Positions 19,976-21,743 of a stretch of 64,000 bases of DNA are shown one piece after another. The notes beneath the pieces are model-generated. The model ran no database searches. It had not been told where the DNA came from and worked only from the letters and a program-made list of their open reading frames with translations. How positions within the stretch are numbered: the first letter of the stretch is position 1; each line of letters starts with the position of its first letter. The stretch is from Candidatus Aenigmatarchaeota archaeon (GTDB lineage Archaea; Aenigmatarchaeota; Aenigmatarchaeia; CG10238-14; SCSR01), in contig JACPAE010000001.1 of NCBI GenBank assembly GCA_016181005.1, positions 1 through 64,000 on the forward strand. Direction: 5' to 3'. The translations under genes were made by a program, and so were the position numbers.

Positions 19976-20072
19976 GCCCCAGTAGCTCAGTCGGTAGAAT
20001 CATGCCGAAAGCACTTCACTCGTAATGGGTCGAGTAATGAAGGGGTCGCGAGTTCGATTCTCGCCTGGGGCT
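19976..20072 (+). tRNA. tRNA-Thr (CGU) with two 12-base introns
   Basis: Acceptor GCCCCAG/CTGGGGC, T arm GCGAG-TTCGATT-CTCGC, anticodon stem CTTCA/TGAAG with loop CTCGTAA, anticodon CGT. Two insertions interrupt the fold. The first (about 19999-20010) splits the 3' strand of the D stem between positions 23 and 24: removing 12 bases restores GCTC/GAGC. The second (20025-20036) is at the canonical 37/38 site; exon CTCG pairs intron CGAG with TAA bulges on both sides. After both removals the tRNA has 73 bases. Confidence 0.88.
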
Positions 20073-20102
20073 TTTTAAATCTTGGAATGGTATTGGTTGT
20101 TT

Positions 20103-20393
20103 ATGGAAATAGTGCTGCACTTCAAGTCTGAGAATTATGCAAAGGGAAAGGATATCTTGCTTGCTGACGATGTTGTCGGCAGGGCCAGCATGACATTCAA
20201 GGAAGGCTCTATTATAGGGAAGCAAGGTTACTACTGCTATCTTAGCGGGACAGAAGAACAATGCAAGCGAGCCTTGGAACTGACAAAGGATTTGGCGGAA
20301 GAAGTTCGGGACGAAGAGAAATCCCTGATTATAGGAAAAATTAAGGAAGAGGAAAACAGAGCATTGGAAGGCTTTGGAAATATCCTCGGTTAA
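20103..20393 (+). CDS. Small hypothetical protein
   Basis: 96 residues from MEIVLHFKSEN. Start chosen at 20103 because it follows the tRNA by a normal spacer; the frame remains open 21 bases further up. Alternating strands and a long charged helix (ALELTKDLAEEVRDEEKSLII) suggest a small alpha-beta protein. No family recognised. Confidence 0.55.
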   Translation: MEIVLHFKSENYAKGKDILLADDVVGRASMTFKEGSIIGKQGYYCYLSGTEEQCKRALELTKDLAEEVRDEEKSLIIGKIKEEENRALEGFGNILG

Positions 20394-20419: not shown

Positions 20420-20523
20420 GCGCCGATAGTCTAGCCTGGTCAAGACGCGAAATTAATGCGGATGCTTGCCAAGTTCGAGAGGATAACTCCCGAAAATCCC
20501 GGGTTCAAATCCCGGTCGGCGCA
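20420..20523 (+). tRNA. tRNA-Gly (GCC) with two introns, neither at 37/38
   Basis: Acceptor GCGCCGA/TCGGCGC, A73, D stem GTCT/AGAC, T arm CCGGG-TTCAAAT-CCCGG. Only one reading gives a normal anticodon arm: CGAAC-TTGCCAA-GTTCG (anticodon GCC). It requires removing 13 bases (20452-20464) from inside the 5' strand of the anticodon stem, between positions 30 and 31. A second, 17-base insertion (20480-20496) lies in the variable loop and forms a textbook bulge-helix-bulge: TTCG pairs CGAA, bulges AGA and AAT, inner GGA/TCC. The mature tRNA would have 74 bases. The first intron's ends are deduced from the restored stem rather than from a perfect splice motif. Confidence 0.78.
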
Positions 20524-20563: not shown

Positions 20564-21133
20564 ATGGCATTGCCGTTTTTCGGAAGGAAGAGGAAAGAAG
20601 AAAAATCCATGCCGGCTGAAATGCCCTCGCTTTCCTCATTGGACCAGATATCTCCTCTGACGTCCGGGCAACCTATGATGCAGCAACCGGTTCAACAGCC
20701 TATGCCAGAGCAGATGCCGCAACCTCAAATGCAAAGACCGCCGGCACAAGTCACATACCAACCTCCAGAGCTCAAGCCGGAAAGAGTGCCCGAAAGACCG
20801 ACATCGGCGCCATTGTTCGTCAAGGTCGACAGGTACAGGCAGATATTGAGTACTATAGCAAGCTTGAAATTATCCTTATCTTCAATCAAAAGCTCCCTTG
20901 CAACTTTGGAGCAAATTGACAAACTCAAAGGAGACGCCACAGAAGTAATAGCACAGATGGTCAGCAAACTCGACCAGAAGCTAATGACGCTGGACAACGA
21001 CTTGCTCCGGCCAGCCGGCTATCACGATACCGGTGAAGCTTCTGAATATAGCGATGTGAGAGGCATAGAATCTACTGTTGTAGACTTGCAAGGACAGATT
21101 GAGCAACTAAGATCGGAACTGACTCGGATCTAG
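20564..21133 (+). CDS. Pro/Gln-rich coiled-coil protein
   Basis: 189 residues: basic start (MALPFFGRKRKEEK), a low-complexity Pro-Gln-Met linker (about 30-85), then two helical blocks likely to form coiled coils (VDRYRQILSTIASLKLSLSSI; VVDLQGQIEQLRSELTRI). Similar small proteins accompany archaeal cell-division or cytoskeletal genes, but I cannot assign this one. TATA-like TTTAGTATG at the start. Confidence 0.6.
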   Translation: MALPFFGRKRKEEKSMPAEMPSLSSLDQISPLTSGQPMMQQPVQQPMPEQMPQPQMQRPPAQVTYQPPELKPERVPERPTSAPLFVKVDRYRQILSTIASLKLSLSSIKSSLATLEQIDKLKGDATEVIAQMVSKLDQKLMTLDNDLLRPAGYHDTGEASEYSDVRGIESTVVDLQGQIEQLRSELTRI

Positions 21134-21624: not shown

Positions 21625-21743
21625 GCGGGGGTCGCATAGCCTGGTCAATTGCGTCGCGCTCAAGTATCATTGAGCATTGATGAAAGATGATAAAGATACG
21701 CGATGGGTTAGTCCCTTCGAGAGTTCGAATCTCTCCCCCCGCA
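21625..21743 (+). tRNA. tRNA-Leu (CAA) with intron at 37/38
   Basis: Acceptor GCGGGGG/CCCCCGC with A73, T arm GAGAG-TTCGAAT-CTCTC, long class II variable arm (GGGTTAGTCCC region). Anticodon stem TCGCG pairs CGCGA and the loop starts CTCAAG, anticodon CAA. About 33 bases (21665-21697) are inserted after position 37, the normal archaeal intron site. Confidence 0.9.

Follow-up and report, generated by a model that had tools for sequence, protein, structure and literature searches.

How can a tRNA-Gly gene that is interrupted twice outside the usual 37/38 site give rise to a mature tRNA, and which endonuclease would process its transcript? The gene lies in a stretch of 64,000 nucleotides (hereafter the window), which corresponds to bases 1-64000 of contig C5 in a 740-kb, 5-contig, 92%-complete genome (Aenigmatarchaeota, DPANN MAG). 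Judged by EndA (83-88% identity), the closest named relatives of this genome are Candidatus Aenigmatarchaeota MAGs from groundwater. Rfam model RF00005 matched 20420-20523 on the plus strand with 43.3 bits against a cut-off of 29, and ARAGORN gave no call for tRNA-Gly(GCC) at this place. On sequence comparison, we consider it very probable that the locus is functional as the genome's one copy of tRNA-Gly(GCC), and that two introns of the bulge-helix-bulge (BHB) type, at 29/30 and 45/46, interrupt its transcript. The features on which the argument draws are as follows.

20082..20393, plus strand: upstream ORF, syntenic with L182 of genome G003, where a homologous ORF lies beside the intronless orthologue.
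20420..20523, plus strand: pre-tRNA-Gly(GCC) gene (RF00005, 43.3 bits; cloverleaf parse; 7 compensatory pairs versus same-genus orthologues).
20451..20463, plus strand: intron 1, site 29/30, 13 nt, AATTAATGCGGAT (relaxed BHB; placed by the G003 and G002 orthologues).
20466..20472, plus strand: anticodon loop TTGCCAA with anticodon GCC and an empty 37/38 site (direct reading, parse).
20480..20496, plus strand: intron 2, site 45/46 in the variable loop, 17 nt, AGGATAACTCCCGAAAA (strict BHB; absent in G002, G003 and G004).
20564..21133, plus strand: downstream ORF, likewise syntenic with L182 of G003.

The pre-tRNA reads GCGCCGA TA GTCT-AGCCTGGTCA-AGAC G CGA[AATTAATGCGGAT]GC TTGCCAA GTTCG AG[AGGATAACTCCCGAAAA]TC CCGGG-TTCAAAT-CCCGG TCGGCGC A and, according to the cloverleaf parse, the mature tRNA is 74 nt long once both introns are excised. 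tRNA-Thr(CGT), located directly upstream (19976-20072, plus strand), has introns at 22/23 (12 nt) and 37/38 (12 nt), and tRNA-Leu(CAA) (21625-21743, plus strand) has a 33-nt intron at 37/38; the leucine gene came up only in the genome-wide scan (39.4 bits), having been overlooked when the window was scanned with the fast Rfam search.

A preliminary description of this DNA had proposed insertions of 13 and 17 nt with the 37/38 site empty, and the RF00005 match, the parse and direct reading bore this out. It had also placed the anticodon-stem intron at 30/31, which proved to be off by one. The sequence alone allows two placements, base 30 being G or A accordingly: in the 30/31 register the intron spans 20452-20464 (ATTAATGCGGATG) and leaves the mature stem CGAAC/GTTCG, while in the 29/30 register removal of AATTAATGCGGAT leaves CGAGC/GTTCG with a G30-U40 pair. 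If the intron were indeed at 30/31, the tRNA would be left with A30-U40, a Watson-Crick 30-40 pair, and the endonuclease would be cutting a non-BHB motif. This is very unlikely, because G30-U40 is found in all three same-genus Gly-GCC orthologues (G002, G003 and G004), the single intron of the G002 copy lies exactly at 29/30 (ACATAAATGGTGTAA) within a strict BHB (4 central, 3 inner and 3 outer pairs), and the BHB of the window intron in the 30/31 register is no better than chance (P = 0.34). We therefore place intron 1 at 29/30. The copies of G003 (L182:1449-1522) and G004 are intronless, and both genes flanking the G003 copy are homologous to those at 20082-20393 and 20564-21133 of the window. 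The 45/46 intron was seen in the window genome only, being absent from all three orthologues, and it is probably a recent gain.

After excision of the window introns all 21 pairs are formed in each of the four tRNAs, 7 pairs being changed on both sides, and the excised tRNA aligns to its intronless orthologues with 100% paired cells, so that a standard tRNA is restored. The variable loop left by the 17-nt excision is AGTC, 4 nt long and identical to that of the intronless G003 orthologue. A 16-nt excision, which would leave a 5-nt loop, was ruled out since every orthologue has a 4-nt loop. These observations also bear on the possibility that the locus is a decaying tRNA-Gly pseudogene whose insertions are never removed. 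Its covariance score of 43.3 bits is indeed low next to the intronless tRNAs of the genome, but its stems all pair after excision with seven compensatory changes between species, the genome scan found it to be the sole GCC gene among 36 tRNA loci, and interruptions of this sort occur in the majority of the other essential tRNAs. Decay is thus the least probable of the explanations weighed here, and we retain the reading of a functional, twice-interrupted gene.

The splice junctions were scored against the strict BHB geometry (4-bp central helix, 3-nt bulges), with P values calculated against shuffled introns. Intron 2 scored 4/4 central pairs (TTCG/CGAA) and 3 inner pairs (GGA/TCC) with 3-nt bulges, which was the best of 726 placements in the sequence (shuffle P = 0.0003), in keeping with the clean bulge-helix-bulge described there before. 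The anticodon-stem intron had been described as a misfit to the motif, and this is a product of the wrong 30/31 register: at 29/30 it forms a relaxed BHB with 3/4 central pairs (closed by A.G), 2 inner and 3 outer pairs (P = 0.012). A BHB is thus present at both junctions, strict at 45/46 and relaxed at 29/30. The two inner pairs of intron 1 would leave a 2-nt loop, hence at most one of them can form, and with a length of only 13 nt the intron is nearly devoid of an inner helix. That its central helix has just three Watson-Crick pairs speaks against our model. When the precursor was folded, the minimum-energy structure (-37.4 kcal/mol, z = -2.8) included the outer and central helices of intron 1, but at intron 2 a rival hairpin (UCG/CGA with a 1x1 internal loop) was favored; the strict BHB at that intron is thus inferred and does not correspond to the predicted optimum.

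In the precursor, the 3' end of intron 1 would form a helix with exon bases 24-27, as would that of intron 2 with bases 40-43. Because of these pairings both splice sites could be displayed together, the D and anticodon stems being sacrificed. EndA would then cut two bases into each 3-nt bulge, and ligation of the exons by RtcB would give a cloverleaf equal to the one that related species encode without introns. The excision, like the subunit assembly of the enzyme and the catalytic role of a loop lysine considered below, is what we infer from the gene, its intron positions and its orthologues as read from the sequences, together with the enzyme inventory and the lysine pattern.

We ran the 36 tRNA loci of the genome through a home-made parser, discounting the extra variable-arm introns that it reported in class II leucine tRNAs, which are normal long variable arms. 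Introns were parsed in 24 loci, about two thirds of the tRNA genes, and about 14 loci have at least one intron outside 37/38, with three ambiguous parses (Ala-GGC, a 146-nt Ser-type gene and Thr-GGT). The Ser-type gene (L035, G000:C1:140971-141116, plus strand) apparently has 3 introns, including one within the long variable arm, although its parse is uncertain. Elsewhere in the genome, Gly-CCC and Ser-GCT are also interrupted at 29/30, a strict intron sits at 30/31 of Lys-CTT, and the variable-loop site used in Gly-GCC is occupied in Pro-CGG as well. The variable-loop introns of Gly-GCC and Pro-CGG both end in CCGAAAA; we do not claim homology for them, as pairing to the same GTTCG forces most of the match. 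Gly-TCC has 29/30 introns in G001, G002 and G003 but no intron in the window genome or G004, so the glycine tRNAs gain and lose 29/30 introns across the genus, and 29/30 is a recurrent insertion site in them. In the G003 Gly-TCC gene (L208, G003:C3) the 29/30 intron is accompanied by one of 31 nt within the T arm, at 53/54, and the central helices of both are full.

Such introns had been taken to require a splicing endonuclease of broad specificity as known from some crenarchaea and a few DPANN. Our results support the need for such an enzyme, and the host, one of the Aenigmatarchaeota, is a member of the DPANN. Identification of the subunit type, suggested earlier as a check, gave one alpha-type EndA with a non-canonical active site. 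The genome encodes a single EndA-domain protein (PF01974, PF02778) of 188 aa at C5:69013-69579 (minus strand), outside the window. It has both domains and the EndA fold: the AlphaFold model of a same-genus homologue (L087; mean pLDDT 91.8, lower at 79 in the loop block) folds as EndA, with 1a79 as its best structural match (TM 0.80/0.87). Alignment to solved enzymes showed that catalytic Tyr118 and His134 are kept and that the third position is Ala165, so the Tyr-His-Lys triad, which in the ARMAN-2 endonuclease is Y236, H251 and K282 (PMC6379350, PMC12397907), is incomplete. Lys33 of a YGK motif aligns by sequence with ASL Lys161, the broad-specificity lysine of CSL/ASL; the ASL lysine confers broad specificity on the ARMAN-2 endonuclease (PMC12397907). 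Most likely, the window-genome enzyme works as a homotetrameric alpha-type EndA whose broad specificity comes from the YGK lysine.

Lack of the catalytic lysine might indicate that the enzyme is weaker or, in a genome that is 92% complete, that a partner subunit escaped detection. In its strong form the latter would make the Lys-less EndA purely structural, with another catalytic subunit or enzyme making the cuts. Ala at the third catalytic residue in nearly the whole clade, the incompleteness of the genome and the pairs of adjacent EndA paralogues in a few distant relatives (G040, G047 and G053) would fit such an arrangement. However, Tyr and His are retained in the single alpha copies across the EndA family, the 15 family genomes that gave a match have exactly one EndA each, and a profile search of the window genome at E <= 10 gave no second copy. 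We regard a purely structural EndA as unlikely and favor the single EndA as the cutting enzyme. Some genomes of the same order have 400-aa epsilon2-like enzymes with the catalytic Lys.

Among 86 distinct homologues lacking this lysine the position is occupied by A (72), S (7) or T (7), and Ala was noticed in nearly all related enzymes sampled. These homologues come from Aenigmatarchaeota and Nanohaloarchaea, along with a few further records that are mainly DPANN, and the loop between Tyr and His is longer in almost all of them. Lys is found five residues before His in 84 of them, mostly within the inserted loop and with varying adjacent basic residues; L163 (Diapherotrites), one of the 84, has a short loop. 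The remaining two sequences of the 86 are N-terminal halves from duplicated proteins. The duplicated, fused EndA proteins L138 and L149 (Aenigmatarchaeota) carry the loop lysine in the C-terminal half and not in the N-terminal half. The 25 homologues with the canonical Lys comprise 19 with a short loop, 2 long-loop alpha-type enzymes in which Arg takes the position of the loop Lys, and 4 of epsilon2 type. In ARMAN-2 the loop I243-E248, which corresponds to the inserted loop, lies beside the ASL near the catalytic centre (PMC12397907). With the canonical lysine gone, the conserved lysine of the inserted loop would be the best candidate for a substitute. Since Lys-less enzymes keep Lys five residues before His, we propose, with slightly less than even confidence, that loop Lys129 may replace the lost catalytic lysine in the window-genome EndA. 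The tree requires only 2 and 3 changes for lysine loss and loop gain, the paired test has no power, and independent recurrence of the two was not demonstrated; the idea of a relocated lysine is thus backed by conservation and not by repeated evolution, because one or two ancient events are involved.

Along with EndA, the genome encodes the ligase RtcB, and its gene (L213, G000:C2:74457-75833, minus strand, outside the window) is itself interrupted twice in conserved motifs. When the 32-nt stretch that separates PDGH from SGYGFP and a 31-nt stretch within GFDI/NCGM are excised, an open frame of 498 aa results. The second intron has a strict BHB (4/3/3) and the first a relaxed one with 3/4 central pairs. 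The site of the first intron is common to G004, G013 and G015, where excision restores the frame too and inner-helix pairs covary, and the intron is missing from G003 and G005. The G002 RtcB gene (L227/L229, G002:C2:140925-143642) has a long in-frame insertion within an open frame of 960 aa, probably an intein. The rtcB introns argue in favor of active BHB splicing in this lineage, its unusual EndA notwithstanding. A wider proposal, which we put forward more tentatively than the role of Lys129, is that in Aenigmatarchaeota and Nanohaloarchaea the catalytic Lys moved from the SVRK helix to the inserted Tyr-His loop (mostly as G-x-K), and that EndA of the window family splices rtcB mRNA, which would make the machinery dependent on itself.

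Thus, on comparative evidence tRNA-Gly(GCC) is functional and its intron sites are of types already known; 29/30, 30/31 and 45/46 are among the non-canonical sites in a published review (PMC4090602), and as it lists both 29/30 and 45/46, these positions are not new. The same gene with none, one or two introns inside one genus forms a clean presence/absence series, which makes intron gain testable. The enzyme system shows a change in the active site that is testable and may be important. The Lys-less EndA calls into question whether all splicing endonucleases share the Tyr-His-Lys triad, and relocation of a catalytic residue can be tested on it. With introns in rtcB, the RNA ligase would itself arise through the reaction that it catalyzes, a possible feedback loop.

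In the literature searched we found no survey of non-canonical tRNA introns in Aenigmatarchaeota and, in a partial search, no report of rtcB introns. The non-canonical BHB tRNA introns of Crenarchaeota and Nanoarchaeota (PMC4090602) resemble those described here in both positions, in short introns, in their occurrence several per tRNA and in relaxed BHB motifs; what differs is the Aenigmatarchaeota host, the combination in tRNA-Gly(GCC) and the close series of gain and loss within one genus. The cbf5 introns of Crenarchaeota (PMC2738675) are likewise BHB introns in an mRNA, removable by EndA, whereas the gene interrupted here is rtcB, the ligase required for splicing itself. With the epsilon2 endonuclease of ARMAN-2 (PMC12397907, PDB 4fz2) the window-genome EndA shares the fold and the catalytic Tyr and His; both have a long loop between these residues and belong to a DPANN host with non-canonical tRNA introns, and by sequence a lysine of the window-genome enzyme aligns with ASL Lys161. 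In contrast to it, the window-genome protein is a 188-aa alpha-type subunit and not a three-unit protomer, has Ala at the Lys282 position and bears a different inserted loop. The alpha4 EndA of Methanocaldococcus jannaschii (PDB 1a79), which is both the best structural match and the best full-length single-subunit sequence match, is also a single small subunit with both Pfam domains, but its Tyr-His loop is short, the SVRK lysine is present and YGN stands where the window-genome enzyme has YGK.
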